Source: Bacteroidota bacterium (GTDB lineage Bacteria; Bacteroidota; Bacteroidia; Flavobacteriales_D; Crocinitomicaceae). From it: a stretch of DNA of 64,000 bases. Shown one piece after another: positions 3,557 to 53,685 of this stretch. The stretch lies in assembly GCA_016192075.1 (NCBI GenBank), contig JACPUU010000021.1:186001-250000 (forward strand), in the 5' to 3' direction. How positions within the stretch are numbered: the first letter of the stretch is position 1; every line of letters begins with the position of its first letter. The notes below the pieces were generated by a model, which saw only the letters and a list, made by a program, of their open reading frames with translations, did no database searches and was not told the origin of the DNA. The position numbers were made by a program, and so were the translations under genes.

Positions 3557-6301
3557 TTAAACCCGCACTCCAATCAGACATACGTCATCAACCTGCTCAA
3601 GGCTGCCACGCCAGTCTTCAAAAGCATGCTGAATTTTGTGCAGCTGTTCAGGCATTGGAAGTGCTGTTACTTCCAGGATAAGTTCTTTCAAACTGGAGGC
3701 TTTGAATTTTTTGCCTTTATCACCCCCAAACTGATCCTGGAAACCATCTGTAAAAACATAAATGGTATCTCCTTTTTCAAGCTGAAGCTGATGCCCGGTA
3801 AATGGTTTTGCATCTGCAAATTTACCAATGGGTTGTTTATCTCCCTTCAACTCTTCCAGCGCACCGGTACTTTTACGAACCACCCACAGCGGGTTATTGG
3901 CACCGGCCCAGGCAAGCGTGAGTGAAGAAAGTGAGAGCGCACAGAGTGAAATATCCATTCCATCCCTTACATTTTCATCACTCTTTTCAAATTCATGAAC
4001 AACAATTTCACGTGTTTTATCCAGAATTTTTGCAGGATCCGTAAGTCCGTATTCCCGCACAGAGCGGTTGAGTGCATTGTGACACACCACACTTACCAGC
4101 GCCCCGGGTACGCCATGTCCGGTGCAGTCTGCCGCCGCAAACAAAACGCAATCCGCTTTTCCATCAGAAGCTGAAACAGCAACCAAATTTTCTCCCCCGG
4201 AGTCCGAAACACCAGCGTTTTTCTTTCCCACAGAATCCAAAGCACCAGCGTAGTTCTTTCCCTTGGAATCCGAAGCACCAGCGTAGTTCTTTCCCTTGGA
4301 ATCTAAAGTCCCAAGTTCGTTTTCTTCCCCGGAATCAGAAACACCAACTGCGTTCTTTCCTTTGGAATCCGAAGCGCCAACTGCATTTTCTCCCCCGGAA
4401 TCCGAAACACCAGCGTTTTTCTTTCCCTCAGAATCCGAAGCATCAGTGGCGTTCTTTCCCACAGAATCCAAAGCACCAGCGTAGTTCTTTCCCTCGGAAT
4501 CCGAAGCACCAGCGTACTTCTTTCCCTCGGAATCCGAAGCACCAGCGTTTTTCTTTCCCTTGGAATCCGAAGCACCAACTGCGTTTTCTCCTTCAGAATC
4601 CAAAGCACCAAGTTCGTTTTCTCCCCCAGAATCCGAAGCACCAGCGTTGTTCTTTCCCTTGGAATCCGAAGCATCAGTGGCGTTCTTTCCCACAGAATCC
4701 AAAGCACCAGCGTATTTCTTTCCTTTGGAATCCGAAGCACCAGCGTATTTCTTTCCCTCGGAATCCGAAGCACCAGCGTAGGATTCAATCCAATAAAAAT
4801 CACCGGCAACAATATCTTTCGGTTGGTAAAGAATAAATGCATCGGCAAGTACCTGCGAAACAAATTTGCGCGAAGGAAGAATGGCTGACTGAATACGTTT
4901 TGCGTAGGTAATTGAGTCCAGAATCTCTTTGTTCTTTTCTTCCAGCTGATCAAAGGCATGTGTCACTGTAATTTTCTGTTCTTCAATAATGGCCTTTTGC
5001 TCTCTTGTAATGCGCAGGCGTTTGTAAATGATGAATCCAAACACTACTGCTGCCAGAAGACCTATAACCAGGAAAATGGAAAACTGTTCACGCCGGTGAT
5101 TCTCAGCACGCTCTGTAGCCAGTTCAGCCTTTTGCAGCTTTTTCTCTTCAACTGATTTTAAACTGTCAGCCACCGCCATTTTTTCGTATTCGGCTTTATA
5201 TTCCTGCCGGATAATGGCACTTTTATTTTCATCACTGGTAATGCTGTCTTTTAAGTGCATAAAGGTCTCATGCATCTCAAGTGACTGTTTATAATCGGCC
5301 TTTTTTTTGTACGCCGTATACAACAATTCCGCGGCCTGTTTGCGTTCGCTGATAGCACCTACGGTGGTGGCAATTTCATACGCTTCTGTTGCCATACGAA
5401 TACTTTCATCAAGTTTTCCCTGGTCCAGGTAAATGTTTGCCATGTTAAACTTAACGGCTGAAACAGAAACCATGTCCTGCGTGGCCTCAGCAATTTTAAG
5501 TGCCTCTGAAAAATACGGCAGCGCTTTCTCAAAATCACGCATATCCATATAGGTAGTAGCAAGGTTGTTGAGTGATGCACCCATGCCTACCTGGTCATTA
5601 TTTTTCTGCCGAATGGCAAATGCCTCTTCGTGATAGCTGATTGCAAGCAGACTATTCTTCAGCTCATTTTCCATTACACCCAGGTTATTAAGCACGTTGC
5701 CGCGGTTGGGCTCACTGCCAATTTTAAGGTAAAGCGCATCTGCCAGCAAATAATACTCACGCGCACGGTCATATTCACCCTGGCGGTAATAAACAATACC
5801 AATGTTCAGGTGACAATTGGCAGCACTTAGGGTGTCCCTTTTGAGCTCTTCAATTTTGAGACCCTGGTTAAATTTTTCAATGGCTACCGCATAGTTTCCA
5901 CGCGCCATTTCAATGGTGCCCATGTTATTCAAAAAGGCTGATGCAGCCCTGTACATACCAGAACGTCTGACGCAGTCAAGCCCCTTTTCATAATACACCA
6001 GGGCTGAATCAAATTCAGACCGAAAATACCATGAAATACCAATGGTGTTATAGGCATCTGCCTGCTTAAGCAGGTTTCTGCGCTTAACCGCATAATCCAG
6101 CTGTTCGTGTGCAATAACACAAGCCGTATCAGGCCGTGAAAACAAATAATTTCCCCAGATAAATGATTTGATGGCTTTAAAACGGGTGGTATCATGTTGC
6201 GTTTCATCTTTCCATACCTGGTACAGACTGTCTTGCGATGAATAGGCAACACCCGGCCCAAATACGCATAACCACATGAAAATCAAACCCGTTTTTTTCA
6301 T
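3557..6301 (-). CDS. TPR sensor PP2C (SpoIIE) phosphatase with an internal 11-residue tandem repeat
   Basis: 914-aa membrane-anchored signalling phosphatase. Order: signal sequence (1-21), about eight tetratricopeptide repeats in the periplasm (30-345), a linker, a transmembrane helix (about 403-425), a coiled coil, the linker motif AKRIQSAILPS near 466, then a SpoIIE/PP2C domain. Metal and active-site residues are present: GDFYW, AADCTGHGVPG (Asp725), DGMDISL, FTDGFQDQ and DDVCLIG. Between GDFYWIES and VLFAAADC lie residues 508-705, consisting of 18 copies of an 11-residue unit (consensus YAGASDSEGKK). A paralogue at 51343-53685 has only about 8 residues at this point. The PP2C role is serine/threonine dephosphorylation of an unknown partner, probably STAS-like. 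Confidence 0.9.
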   Translation of the reverse strand: MKKTGLIFMWLCVFGPGVAYSSQDSLYQVWKDETQHDTTRFKAIKSFIWGNYLFSRPDTACVIAHEQLDYAVKRRNLLKQADAYNTIGISWYFRSEFDSALVYYEKGLDCVRRSGMYRAASAFLNNMGTIEMARGNYAVAIEKFNQGLKIEELKRDTLSAANCHLNIGIVYYRQGEYDRAREYYLLADALYLKIGSEPNRGNVLNNLGVMENELKNSLLAISYHEEAFAIRQKNNDQVGMGASLNNLATTYMDMRDFEKALPYFSEALKIAEATQDMVSVSAVKFNMANIYLDQGKLDESIRMATEAYEIATTVGAISERKQAAELLYTAYKKKADYKQSLEMHETFMHLKDSITSDENKSAIIRQEYKAEYEKMAVADSLKSVEEKKLQKAELATERAENHRREQFSIFLVIGLLAAVVFGFIIYKRLRITREQKAIIEEQKITVTHAFDQLEEKNKEILDSITYAKRIQSAILPSRKFVSQVLADAFILYQPKDIVAGDFYWIESYAGASDSEGKKYAGASDSKGKKYAGALDSVGKNATDASDSKGKNNAGASDSGGENELGALDSEGENAVGASDSKGKKNAGASDSEGKKYAGASDSEGKNYAGALDSVGKNATDASDSEGKKNAGVSDSGGENAVGASDSKGKNAVGVSDSGEENELGTLDSKGKNYAGASDSKGKNYAGALDSVGKKNAGVSDSGGENLVAVSASDGKADCVLFAAADCTGHGVPGALVSVVCHNALNRSVREYGLTDPAKILDKTREIVVHEFEKSDENVRDGMDISLCALSLSSLTLAWAGANNPLWVVRKSTGALEELKGDKQPIGKFADAKPFTGHQLQLEKGDTIYVFTDGFQDQFGGDKGKKFKASSLKELILEVTALPMPEQLHKIQHAFEDWRGSLEQVDDVCLIGVRV
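4187..4780 (-). repeat. 33-bp tandem repeat, 18 copies, inside the PP2C domain
   Basis: Eighteen in-frame copies of a 33-bp unit encoding an 11-residue peptide of the form YAGASDSxGKx (variants YAGALDSVGKN, ATDASDSxGKN, NAGxSDSGGEN, ELGxLDSxGxN, AVGASDSKGKx). All units are 33 bp, so copy-number change would never break the frame. The spacing of the three YAGALDSV units is 231 bp (7 units), showing higher-order duplication. Because 33 is divisible by 3, several other frames are also open across it; those are shadows. Confidence 0.95.
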
Positions 6302-39717: not shown

Positions 39718-39836
39718 TTCCTTTTCTCATTCAACCGGGCTTCCAGGAGATTGGTTTACTTTCAACATCCGAAACTTCAGCGCAGGATGACTTAGACAAC
39801 AAAACCACCGCATGTAGAGTTCGTCACGACTCCCCG

Positions 39837-44382: not shown

Positions 44383-44997
44383 ATGCGATTCTATCAAATT
44401 CCCAAATGGTTCAGGACTTTATACCCCGGTGCCATTTGGGATTTTTTTTTGGATCAGAAGCCAACGCTGTACCTGACTTTTGACGACGGCCCCAACCCAA
44501 ACACCACACCATTCATTTTAGATCTGCTGAATCAATATGATGCAAAAGCCACCTTCTTTTGCCTGGGTAAAAACGTCAAAGAATTTCCAGCTTTATTTGA
44601 ACGCATACGCACCAACGGTCATGCCATTGGTAATCACGGCATGCTGCATTTAGATGGCTACAAAACCACTACGGAAGCGTATATCAGAAACGCATCAGAA
44701 GCTGCTGGTTACATTCCATCTTCACTTTACCGCCCGGCCTATGGCCGCATCAAAAAATCACAGTATACAGCTTTAAAAAAACAGGGCTTTCAACCCGTAT
44801 TCTGGTCCTTGCTGACGTATGATTTTGACGCTGCTTTCCCTTCGGAAAAAAGGCTGGCGCTGATTCGCAAAAAAACCAAAGCGGGTACCATCCTGGTTTT
44901 TCATGATTCTGAAAAAGCCTTTCCGCAGTTAAAAAAAGAATTACCCGTTTTGCTGGAAGAATGGAAACGGATGGGGTATACATTTGTCGCCATTTAA
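44383..44997 (+). CDS. Polysaccharide deacetylase family protein (NodB domain)
   Basis: 204-aa enzyme: LYLTFDDGPNPNTTPFIL (Asp34/Asp35 metal motif), HAIGNHGMLHLDGYKT (zinc-binding HxxxH region), LYRPAYGRI, FWSLLTYDFD, and ILVFHDSEKAF. It de-N- or O-acetylates a sugar chain in the envelope. No signal peptide or anchor is obvious (RFYQIPKWFRTLYPGAIWDFFL), so it may sit at the membrane or cytosolic side, working with the DUF2723 protein upstream. Confidence 0.88.
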   Translation: MRFYQIPKWFRTLYPGAIWDFFLDQKPTLYLTFDDGPNPNTTPFILDLLNQYDAKATFFCLGKNVKEFPALFERIRTNGHAIGNHGMLHLDGYKTTTEAYIRNASEAAGYIPSSLYRPAYGRIKKSQYTALKKQGFQPVFWSLLTYDFDAAFPSEKRLALIRKKTKAGTILVFHDSEKAFPQLKKELPVLLEEWKRMGYTFVAI

Positions 44998-45042: not shown

Positions 45043-45160
45043 AATTGTCATTTCGAACGGAATGCAATGGAGAGAGAAATCTTATCCTGTTAACGTCCAA
45101 TATCATCCCATTTATGGCTCCGTTATTGGCAGATTTCTCACTGCGTTCGAAATGACAATT
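45043..45160. mobile_element. MITE-like inverted-repeat element
   Basis: Perfect 15-bp terminal inverted repeats (45043-45057 AATTGTCATTTCGAA and 45146-45160), imperfect continuation with GAGAAATCT on both sides. About 118 bp, no coding capacity. The GTCATTTCGAA...AGATTTCTC pattern is, from memory, a recurrent hairpin repeat in Bacteroidota genomes. Confidence 0.75.
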
Positions 45161-45194
45161 CCAGGTCTTATGGTCAGTAGAATATTCCAAATTA

Positions 45195-45227
45195 AAACCC
45201 CGGCTCTGCGTTCAGAACCGGGGTTTC
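45195..45227 (+). terminator. Hairpin, possible terminator
   Basis: 9-bp stem (45195-45203 with 45218-45226), only three Ts after it; may terminate the DUF2723 operon after the MITE. Confidence 0.45.
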
Positions 45228-45366
45228 TCCATGAAAAAAATCTACTATTAACGTTGCTATTGTTGACCCCTGAACTGCATTTGTGCTTACTTATGCCATG
45301 AAAAATTTACGTCGTCTTAGGGTCTTCAGATAATAGTAGCTCTTTTGAGTTTAAAACTCAGTTTCT

Positions 45367-46176
45367 TTAAAAGTGAAAGGATGCACCAAACGTAAGCGGA
45401 TATGCTGTTTCTGATTTTCCGTTTTCATACAGTGACAGCAGGTTGTAATTTGCAAACAACCCAAAATCACGGTAACCCATACGCACTGTAGCACATACCT
45501 GGAACGGGTTGAGGTTGTATCTACCCTTTTCTTTATGATCATTTTCACCGCCAAACACATCGTAAATGTATTTTACTTTTGAACCAATTCTGACACCGCC
45601 AATGGCTCCAAAAGCAATGTGAAAGTTCTTCTCAGCATACCTGGATGTATTGATTTGAAAAAGCACCGGAATGTTGAAGTAATTTACGCGCAACTGATTT
45701 TTGGTAAAGCCCGTTACCAGTGTTGAATCATACATTCCCCAGGTAGAATCTGCATTTGACGTCAGGCGTAAATGATCATCTTTAAAACCATAACGGCTGT
45801 TGGTAAATCCAAGCCCGGTAACAATTCCAAAATAATCTTTGACTATTCTGATTTTTTGTTCTGCAAAATTAAAACTGTATGAGAATGATTGCGCCGGGTC
45901 TACCTCCAGGTGAGCTGAATTAAAAGTAGGTTCAAAATTGCCATTCATGAGCATGTTTACACCTACATCCAATCCACCCCAATAGGTTAAATCTCCATAA
46001 TCCCAGTCTTTTGACCATTCTTCAGGCTCCTGCGTATCTTCTGCCAGCAGGGTGTCTTTATCTACAATTATAAACTCAATGTCTCCAATTGTAAAACGGG
46101 TTGTATCACCTTCTTCTTCTTGTCCGAATAAAATTGCGCCTGCAAGCAGTGCAAAAATTGTTGTTAGCTTTTTCAT
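45367..46176 (-). CDS. Outer-membrane beta-barrel protein (PorT/OmpW-like family)
   Basis: 269-aa protein; signal 1-19, acidic N-terminal segment, then an 8-strand-like barrel with alternating hydrophobic strands (TYWGGLDVGVNMLM, YFGIVTGLGFTNSRYGF, NYFNIPVLFQIN, FHIAFGAIGGVRIGSK, CATVRMGYRDFGLFANYNLLSLYE) and C-terminal aromatic FHF. Belongs to the outer membrane beta-barrel (PF13568-like) family. It is the third gene of a sigma/anti-sigma/barrel unit and is separated from the anti-sigma gene by a 44-bp perfect palindrome. Confidence 0.8.
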   Translation of the reverse strand: MKKLTTIFALLAGAILFGQEEEGDTTRFTIGDIEFIIVDKDTLLAEDTQEPEEWSKDWDYGDLTYWGGLDVGVNMLMNGNFEPTFNSAHLEVDPAQSFSYSFNFAEQKIRIVKDYFGIVTGLGFTNSRYGFKDDHLRLTSNADSTWGMYDSTLVTGFTKNQLRVNYFNIPVLFQINTSRYAEKNFHIAFGAIGGVRIGSKVKYIYDVFGGENDHKEKGRYNLNPFQVCATVRMGYRDFGLFANYNLLSLYENGKSETAYPLTFGASFHF

Positions 46177-46194: not shown

Positions 46195-46238
46195 CCCGGC
46201 CCTTAGCCCGGGATTTAAATCCCGGGCTAAGGGCCGGG
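46195..46238. repeat. 44-bp perfect palindrome
   Basis: Arms of 22 bp (46195-46216 and 46217-46238) with no loop, core GGGATTTAAATCCC. It lies 18 bp upstream of the barrel gene start and downstream of the anti-sigma gene. There is no T run on the minus strand, so it is not a normal terminator for that operon. Confidence 0.95.
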
Positions 46239-49542: not shown

Positions 49543-49591
49543 CAACAGTCCTCCGAAGCTTTAGCGAAGGAGAATGATAAAACCAAACAAT

Positions 49592-51342: not shown

Positions 51343-53685
51343 GTGAGATTTTTCGACCGCATTGCTGCTCTGAAAATAAATGCAAAACTCACGTTGGCGT
51401 TTTTTGTAATTGCATTTTCTTCTATCACCATTATTGGTCTTCTTTCTTACTTCAAAGGAAAACGGTCACTGGAAGAAGAATCATTCAACCGGCTGACAGC
51501 GGTGCGTGAAATGAAAGCAACGCAGATTGAAGATTATTTTCTGCAAATCACCAATCAAATTTTAACCTTTTCTGAAGATCATACCATTATTGAGGCCATG
51601 CAGGCTTTTAAAGCTGGTTTTGATACCCTGGAGGGTGAATTGAATTACGATGAAAGTGAACTGCAAAGTGCAAATTTCAGACTGACAAAATATTACGAAT
51701 CTGAATTTTTACCCCGGCTAAAACGCAACCTCGATGGCGATGCAGAAACGGCTTCCTACATTCCTTCCAGCACCAATGAAAAACTGCTGCAGGACCTCTA
51801 CATTGCCTCCAATGAAAATGAGGTAGGAGACAAGCACTACCTGCATTTTGCACCAGACAGCAGTTCCTACTCAAAGGCACACCGGATTTATCATCCGCTT
51901 ATCCGTAGCTATCTTGAAAAATTTGAATACTATGACATCTTTCTGGTAGACCATGAGACCGGGCATATTGTGTATTCTGTTTACAAAGAAGTTGATTTTG
52001 GAACATCGCTGCTGGATGGCGCCTATGCCAATACCAACATTGCTGAGGCTTTCAGACAGGCGCGTGATGCAGATAAAAAAGAGTTTGTTCGCCTGGTTGA
52101 TTTTGAACCATACCACCCGTCTTACAACGCGCCGGCAGCATTTATAGCATCACCCATTTTTAATGACGCCCATGAAAAAATTGGGGTACTCATTTTTCAG
52201 ATGCCCATTGACCGCATCAATGAAATTATGACTAACCGCCATGAATGGGCCAACGTGGGCCTTGGAAAAAGCGGAGAAACCTATATTGTAGCGGATGATT
52301 TTACACTGCGCAACCAGTCTCGCTTTTTCATTGAAGACAAGGAAAACTATTTCAAACTGATTCAGGAAATAGGAACACCCGAATCAACCGTTACCAAAAT
52401 CAAAAATTTTGAAAGTACCATTGGCCTTCAGCAGGTAAAAACAGAAGGCACTATTGCAGCACTTGAAGGCAAAACAGATGCCCGCATTTTTGACGATTAC
52501 CGCGGAGTGCCGGTGCTGTCATCGTACAAACCATTAAACATTCAGGACATGCACTGGGTGATTATGAGTGAAATTGACCGCGATGAAGCCTTTGCCCATG
52601 TGTATGATTTACGACGAAATATTGTTATTGTATTTATTGGCTTGTTCATCAGCATCATTTTTGCTTCTATCATTATCTCAAAAAAAATTACACGCCCCAT
52701 TAAGCAACTCACCGGTAAAGCGCAAGAGCTTGCTGCCGGTAACCTGGAGGTGCAAATTGAGGTGCTTGGAAAAGATGAAATTGGCATTTTATCTCAGAGT
52801 TTTGGCAACATGCAGCACTCTATCAAAAAAATGGTGGATGAGCTAAATGACATTAACCACAACCTTGAAGAAAAAGTGCTGGAACGCACGCATGAAATTC
52901 AGCATCAGAAAGAAATGGTTGAAGAGAAAAACAGAGAAATTCTGGATTCCATCAACTATGCACTGCGCCTGCAATCTGCCATCATTCCGCCGGTTTCAAA
53001 AATCAAAGAAAAGTTTGAAGACAGTTTTGTTTTGTTTAAACCAAAAGACATTGTAAGCGGTGATTTTTACTGGATGGATGTCAAGGGGCACAACATTCTG
53101 CTGGCTGCGGCTGACTGCACCGGGCATGGTGTACCCGGCGCTATGGTAAGCGTTGTTGGTGCCAATAGCCTGAACCGGTGTGTAAAAGAATTTGGCCTGC
53201 GCAAACCTTCTTCAATACTGGATAAGCTTCGCGAACTGATTATTGAAACCTTTGAAATGTCTAACCATGAAGTAAAAGACGGCATGGATATTTCACTGCT
53301 TTCCATTGACCGTGAAAAAGGAAAAGCTCAGTGGTCCGGCGCCCACAACCCGCTATGGATATTGAAACGTGACAGCCATGAAATAATTGAAATAAAAGCA
53401 GACAAACAACCCATTGGAAAATTTGAGTTTGCCAAACCATTTACCAATCATGAAGTTGATATTGAACCGGGTGATTGTTTGTACCTTTTTACTGATGGTT
53501 TTGCTGACCAGTTTGGCGGTGACAAAGGAAAAAAACTAAAGGCTTCAACCATGCGTGACCTTTTTGTATCACTCAAAAACGTTCCGATGGAAGAACAAAA
53601 AGTGCGCATTGACGAAACATTCGAAAACTGGAAAAATGTGCTCGAGCAGGTTGATGACGTTTGTGTTATTGGAGTACGGCTTTGA
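51343..53685 (+). CDS. Cache-HAMP SpoIIE/PP2C phosphatase
   Basis: 780-aa sensor phosphatase: TM1 (about 15-37), double-Cache-like extracytoplasmic domain (40-425, with VGEDKHYL-like and FLVDHETGHIVYSVYKEVDFGTSL), TM2 (427-450), HAMP (450-500), coiled coil, linker INYALRLQSAIIPP, then PP2C (560-780: GDFYW, AAADCTGHGVPGAM, DGMDISLLS, FTDGFADQ, DDVCVIG). All metal ligands are present. GTG start at 51343 because the TM1 begins immediately. It is the paralogue of the TPR-PP2C at 3557-6301 and lacks its 11-residue repeats. Confidence 0.9.
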   Translation: MRFFDRIAALKINAKLTLAFFVIAFSSITIIGLLSYFKGKRSLEEESFNRLTAVREMKATQIEDYFLQITNQILTFSEDHTIIEAMQAFKAGFDTLEGELNYDESELQSANFRLTKYYESEFLPRLKRNLDGDAETASYIPSSTNEKLLQDLYIASNENEVGDKHYLHFAPDSSSYSKAHRIYHPLIRSYLEKFEYYDIFLVDHETGHIVYSVYKEVDFGTSLLDGAYANTNIAEAFRQARDADKKEFVRLVDFEPYHPSYNAPAAFIASPIFNDAHEKIGVLIFQMPIDRINEIMTNRHEWANVGLGKSGETYIVADDFTLRNQSRFFIEDKENYFKLIQEIGTPESTVTKIKNFESTIGLQQVKTEGTIAALEGKTDARIFDDYRGVPVLSSYKPLNIQDMHWVIMSEIDRDEAFAHVYDLRRNIVIVFIGLFISIIFASIIISKKITRPIKQLTGKAQELAAGNLEVQIEVLGKDEIGILSQSFGNMQHSIKKMVDELNDINHNLEEKVLERTHEIQHQKEMVEEKNREILDSINYALRLQSAIIPPVSKIKEKFEDSFVLFKPKDIVSGDFYWMDVKGHNILLAAADCTGHGVPGAMVSVVGANSLNRCVKEFGLRKPSSILDKLRELIIETFEMSNHEVKDGMDISLLSIDREKGKAQWSGAHNPLWILKRDSHEIIEIKADKQPIGKFEFAKPFTNHEVDIEPGDCLYLFTDGFADQFGGDKGKKLKASTMRDLFVSLKNVPMEEQKVRIDETFENWKNVLEQVDDVCVIGVRL

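Follow-up and report, generated by a model that had tools for sequence, protein, structure and literature searches.

How a phosphatase of the SpoIIE/PP2C type came to carry about 207 extra residues between two of its metal-binding motifs is the question raised by a gene of a Bacteroidota bacterium; it lies in the window, that is, the whole stretch of 64,000 nucleotides that was analysed. The gene, its insert and an uninserted paralogue are located as follows.

3557..6301, minus strand: gene for a 914-aa TPR / one-TM / coiled-coil / SpoIIE (PP2C) phosphatase (ORF, translation, Pfam TPR and SpoIIE)
4193..4781, minus strand: tandem array with 17.8 repeats of a 33-bp unit; the encoded peptides resemble YAGASDSxGKx (TRF and unit table)
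4799..4801, minus strand: GDFYW codon for the Asp presumed to bind metal, preceding the insert (translation)
4127..4129, minus strand: DCTGHG codon for the metal-binding Asp, following the insert (translation)
51343..53685, plus strand: paralogue with Cache-HAMP-SpoIIE architecture and an ordinary 13-residue hairpin, MDVKGHNILLAAA

Regarding the host gene, its ORF is open throughout with the array in frame, as the translation confirms, and the 914-aa product has a hydrophobic, signal-like N-terminus, one TM helix and a coiled coil, all recognized by eye; Pfam finds TPRs followed by SpoIIE (E 6.3e-24), the latter match beginning only past the insert. The motifs 3' of the insert (DCTGHG, DGMD, TDG and DD) are intact in the translation. 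Judged by the profile match and the metal-binding motifs GD..., D[CS]TGHG, TDG and DD, the protein is a member of the SpoIIE/PP2C (PPM) phosphatases. It has the catalytic fold and motifs in common with both SiaA (6k4e, the top PDB match for the PP2C fold) and Bacillus subtilis SpoIIE (5ucg); the difference lies in the β1-β2 hairpin, which according to the alignment is short in SiaA at the position where the 914-aa protein has its 207-residue excess.

As for the array, which spans 4193-4781, TRF detects a 33-bp period repeated 17.8 times (score 600) and, above it, periods of 198 and 231 bp. All 18 units are exactly 33 bp long; the distance from GDFYW to DCTGHG is 220 residues, hence an excess of ~207. 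These values bear out the preliminary description of the locus, which spoke of eighteen in-frame units adding some 200 residues; its further statement, that the array lies within the PP2C domain with the frame preserved and the downstream motifs intact, agrees with the ORF, the translation and the Pfam result. An intein or other self-splicing element was also considered and is ruled out, Pfam having found no splicing domains in the repeat protein or in the DUF559 insert described below.

The two Asp residues, of which that of GDFYW is presumed to be a metal ligand as in PP2C enzymes generally, are joined by a β hairpin. In the model of the uninserted paralogue (51343-53685), which is of modest confidence and agrees in fold, as the paralogue does in sequence, with SiaA 6k4e, the two strands comprise residues 41-46 and 49-55, the turn residues 47-48, and the two Asps are residues 40 and 57; the model thus places the insert at the distal tip of the β1-β2 hairpin, remote from the metal ligands. 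The DCTGHG Asp corresponds to D628 of SpoIIE, which coordinates M2 (PMC5468089), and the substrate-docking loops published for the family are the switch-loop, the flap and the α3/4 loop (PMC11418112); the hairpin bearing the insert is not among these three. The structure models, which are based on two sequences, have low confidence, and that of the inserted domain is poor (mean pLDDT 46), with the insert unstructured along its length (pLDDT ~21-30, from a weak model), so that the 207 residues are probably a disordered loop; none of the conclusions depends on the coordinates of this loop. The preliminary description had envisaged a large disordered loop at the active site: the disorder is in line with the weak model, while a location at the active site is not supported, the modelled one being the distal hairpin tip, outside the published docking loops.

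The source genome encodes 35 SpoIIE domains, and the GDFYW-DCTGHG spacing is 13 residues in 23 of 34 of them; the same spacing is found in 61/90 domains of relatives, chosen mainly as best tblastn matches and not at random, and the longest inserts among these have 183 residues. Four paralogues of the source genome have long inserts at exactly the same hairpin, and their arrays differ in period: 33 bp in the 914-aa gene, 30 bp in L002 (unit FAGASDSKHP), 66 bp in L019, and 33 bp in L017, where the array consists of two units. All four inserts open with the same seed, ES[F/Y]A-x-ASDS. When the loops of 65 domains were compared, the β1-β2 hairpin had both the longest insert (207 residues) and the largest total (463 residues), followed by loops with longest and total values of 47/138 and 25/210; the hairpin is not the sole permissive site, since two other SpoIIE loops tolerate inserts. 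A 47-residue His/Ser-rich low-complexity insert, for instance, occupies a different SpoIIE loop in L079 (G004). The array had been thought to have no counterpart among described PP2C enzymes: a literature search for SpoIIE proteins with tandem repeats, with subscription journals mostly outside its scope, returned no description, but three further paralogues of the same genome and several relatives have inserts at the same hairpin. Equally long inserts in many homologues, which would have spoken against such singularity, were found part-way, those of the relatives reaching at most 183 residues. A scan of viral contigs for the SpoIIE domain gave no relatives.

The seed is, at the DNA level, a palindrome, GAATCC-TACGCTGGTGCTTC-GGATTC or the near form GAATCC-TTCGCTAAAGCTTC-GGATTC, and copies in the window are located as follows.

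4761..4786, minus strand: seed palindrome GAATCCTACGCTGGTGCTTCGGATTC at the upstream array junction, with 1 mismatch to GAATCCTWCGCTNNAGCTTCGGATTC
49552..49571, minus strand: intergenic palindrome copy TCCTTCGCTAAAGCTTCGGA, between two plus-strand genes
39769..39786, minus strand: weaker core copy, with 2 mismatches

The element measures ~26 bp and combines a constant core, CCT[A/T]CGCTNAAGCTTCGG, with complementary arms that are specific to each copy. With up to 2 mismatches allowed, the core CCTWCGCTNAAGCTNCGG has 54 matches in the genome and the reversed pattern 0; SpoIIE inserts account for ~13 of these matches, and the clear copies outside SpoIIE are mostly intergenic or not in long ORFs. 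The core is present in 22 of 395 genomes of the phylum, where a typical copy is CCTCCTTCGCTAAAGCTTCGGAGGAC, and a pattern scan of genome contigs matched only in Flavobacteriales bacterium UBA2798. The arms covary: they pair within copies at 116 of 170 positions, compared with 62.1 ± 5.8 when the right arms are shuffled (0/10000). Single strands fold as an imperfect stem with an internal loop, as is typical of REPs, with individual z-scores that are modest (-1.1 to -2.4), and the element is, like REPs, an imperfect palindrome of 20-40 bp with many dispersed, mainly intergenic copies. Inspection by eye of the flanks of own-genome and phylum copies revealed no constant tetranucleotide of the GTAG or CGTC kind; a RAYT was considered as the mover of the palindrome and rejected, since a search allowing up to 3 mismatches detected the core in none of the six Y1_Tnp loci, and the association of REP and RAYT is thus not found here. 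Rfam gave no family match for the palindrome, its one match in the window being a tRNA, and the literature, searched for both the core sequence and a FAKATADK-like peptide with few subscription journals covered, yielded nothing relevant.

The palindrome recurs at the same hairpin as single copies in four relatives (G044, G003, G037 and G060). The G044 copy is identical over 26/26 bp to a copy of the source genome, the two belonging to different families of the order, and that of G060 is found in a different SpoIIE subfamily (DSTGHG), one codon away. These copies lie in frame within ORFs without breaking the frame, as do the Rickettsia palindromic elements (RPEs). Three self-complementary pairs of arms occur at the SpoIIE hairpin, GAATCC/GGATTC, GCATCC/GGATGC and GAGGCC/GGCCTC; the left arm overlaps host codons, with Glu at that position in 52/86 uninserted DC-type domains and Ala after Trp in 2/2 uninserted domains of the DS type, and the right arm is an inverted copy of the left one. 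Because the left arm overlaps the usual host codons and the right arm repeats it inverted, the sequences suggest that insertion copies the host flank in inverted orientation. An AU test, run on quick trees, rejects a single clade of palindrome carriers (p 5.8e-6 with 8 rows; 3e-41 with the G060 gene).

Other kinds of insert occupy the same hairpin. In genus g4 they are repeats such as TTCCAAGT/ACTTGGAA, CGAG-rich repeats and GAGCAA, and the CTTGGAAC family has copies scattered through G024 (50 matches, control 1) but none in the source genome. Two SpoIIE paralogues of G003, L269 and L283 (C81, C245), have a DUF559 domain at the hairpin (PF04480, E 3e-31), flanked by palindromes such as CCCCTCCTTCTCAAGGAGGGG; L283 is cut by the contig end. 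The DUF559 insert is ~97-100% identical between the two genes and the flanks fall to 78-93% and lower; with an insert so nearly identical and flanks so diverged, the insert would have been recently copied from paralogue to paralogue, or the stretch converted.

DUF559 domains were also seen in frame in other enzymes. The LeuRS of the source genome (L297, G000:C19 ~152.5-155.5 kb, outside the window) has one (E 8.7e-33) together with tandem AQGSLRSEEEQ-like repeats, in the hairpin before FTTRPDT, the ends being palindromic, and farther along a second insert, ASPETTPLSFGEGQGERYGEGE; the MetH L292 (G002:C44) has one (E 1.8e-36) between its B12-binding_2 and B12-binding domains.

The account that we regard as likely is that a REP/RPE-like palindrome landed in frame at the permissive hairpin and was then amplified in tandem into a tolerated, disordered loop. 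A short palindromic element, scattered in the source genome and in other Bacteroidota, would have entered in frame at the codons of the hairpin tip, where it would encode ES[F/Y]A-x-ASDS; tandem duplication of this in-frame seed, by slippage or unequal recombination, would then have produced ~18 units of 33 bp, and the product would be a long and probably disordered loop pointing away from the metal centre, presumably tolerated without loss of activity. In the family at large, the palindrome would have entered the same hairpin repeatedly, as would other repeats peculiar to one genome and a DUF559 nuclease-like domain flanked by palindromes. We infer the insertion event itself from genomes that include no congener of the source, hence no empty-site orthologue of the 3557-6301 gene. 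Further points that weigh against this account are the inserts in two other SpoIIE loops, the invariant Asp-Ser of the units, the possible single clade of the four paralogues, the low confidence of the structure models, and the finding that no transposase could be linked to the element.

An unlikely alternative to independent landing from dispersed copies is that gene conversion, or homing, of the hairpin region carried the seed from one SpoIIE gene to another. In its favour, the two G003 paralogues resemble each other much more closely in the DUF559 insert than in the flanks; so does speak the possibility that the four paralogues of the source genome are one clade: they form one in one tree, with support 0, and their seed may derive from one event followed by duplication. 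Against it, flank identity around the seed of these paralogues shows no clear decay, hence no clear tract of co-conversion, and the arms differ between subfamilies and match the local host codons.

A different emphasis would make the insert adaptive, the palindrome being only raw material: a disordered loop that, through partner docking, crowding or localisation, would give one phosphatase among 35 paralogues its insulation or specificity, and would have been retained and enlarged by selection. The loop is indeed expanded in several paralogues of one genome, and every one of the 18 units keeps both the frame and an invariant Asp-Ser, which could reflect some selection or recent homogenisation. 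The units are nevertheless nearly unconstrained, with dN/dS between them of ~0.8, as expected for a tolerated spacer; moreover, relatives have unrelated inserts at the same tip, and the tip lies outside the known docking loops (PMC11418112), all of which leaves an adaptive origin unlikely.

It is very improbable, and strongly disfavoured, that no DNA element was inserted and that an ordinary low-complexity loop grew by slippage, its likeness to the palindrome being due to coincidence or codon bias: low-complexity inserts do occur in other SpoIIE loops, but such growth does not fit the 54-to-0 dispersal, the covarying arms, or the 26/26 bp match seen across families of the order. That the array is an assembly artefact or belongs to a pseudogene is hardly credible, since, even if the genome is a draft of 22 contigs and repeats are error-prone, the frame is kept in all 18 units, the catalytic motifs are intact, inserts occupy the same site in other genomes, and the units have diverged from one another, with 53 bp as the longest stretch that recurs exactly within the array (offset 231 bp), so that ordinary short reads should mostly resolve it and gross collapse appears unlikely.

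The DUF559 domains of LeuRS and MetH hint at something broader: it may be general in this taxonomic family that proteins take up, in frame, nuclease-like modules flanked by palindromes. A more ambitious and improbable proposal is that DUF559 modules and small palindromes form one homing-like system of non-splicing coding insertions, in which the nuclease would transfer DNA bordered by palindromes to the hairpin turns of conserved proteins (SpoIIE, LeuRS, MetH), copy it between paralogues and leave remnants that expand to arrays such as 4193-4781. A literature search for DUF559 with palindromes gave no description, subscription journals being mostly outside its scope. A comparable published case is the ShiLan-type homing insertion in a phage methylase, in frame and non-splicing, where insertion of the endonuclease keeps the frame and forms a loop (PMC11855218); the ShiLan HNH is encoded out of frame, whereas the DUF559 domains are in frame and flanked by palindromes, and are at most candidates for homing.

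Among known palindromic elements, the closest include RPE-1 to RPE-7, which are dispersed, also occur inside ORFs with the frame kept, in solvent-exposed parts of the protein, and occupy the same site in orthologues, some genes resembling insertion hot spots (PMC3767692, PMC3733652). The element described here is likewise a dispersed palindrome found in frame within ORFs, at the same site and in an exposed position. However, RPEs measure 100-150 bp and come from Rickettsia and Wolbachia (PMC3767692), while this one measures ~26 bp, has copy-specific arms and comes from Bacteroidota, so that it is set apart by size and presumably by sequence; amplification into an 18-unit array, present here, is not described for RPEs in PMC3767692 and PMC3733652. 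By analogy, then, the palindrome appears to work like an RPE yet to stand outside the RPE family. The REPs tagged by GTAG or CGTC are imperfect palindromes of 20-40 bp, mostly intergenic with some in ORFs, whose grouped repeats encode up to 82 residues (PMC3733652). The present element resembles them in size, in imperfect symmetry and in its mostly intergenic location with some copies inside ORFs; it differs in having neither tag nor adjoining RAYT, in its outer arms, which vary and covary, and in an array that adds 207 residues. PARCEL, a 25-residue amphipathic motif of membrane proteins and of ORFs with no assigned function, is also a tandem coding repeat with dyad-symmetric DNA, mobile within and between genomes (PMC2996958), and it differs from the hydrophilic 11-residue unit found here within an enzyme fold. 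The palindrome is further marked by its amplification and by its repeated capture at a single structural position.

In-frame palindromic elements were previously known mainly from Rickettsia and Wolbachia and from some REP-rich genomes, and a like process is now seen in Bacteroidota. The family of 35 paralogues is a natural replicate experiment, with empty hairpins, single palindromes, arrays of varied period and nuclease-like domains at one position; it is an enzyme family that records how selfish DNA settles inside proteins, and it makes testable the entry of such DNA into proteins, the tolerance of the hairpin tip and the origin of new protein segments. The copy-specific complementary arms would provide a testable mechanistic signature of the suggested inverted flank copying.

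Some minor observations concern transposase genes and inverted repeats. At G000:C5:98766-99243, ~130 bp separate a Y1_Tnp transposase gene from a SpoIIE domain, and two more Y1_Tnp genes (C1, C7) are within ~6 kb of SpoIIE genes; both proximities may be due to chance. In the window, a perfect 22-nt inverted repeat with no spacer, CCCGGCCCTTAGCCCGGGATTT, is found between ORFs at 46195-46238, and several inverted repeats are clustered at 45043-45346, in the gap between an ORF ending at 44997 and another starting at 45367.
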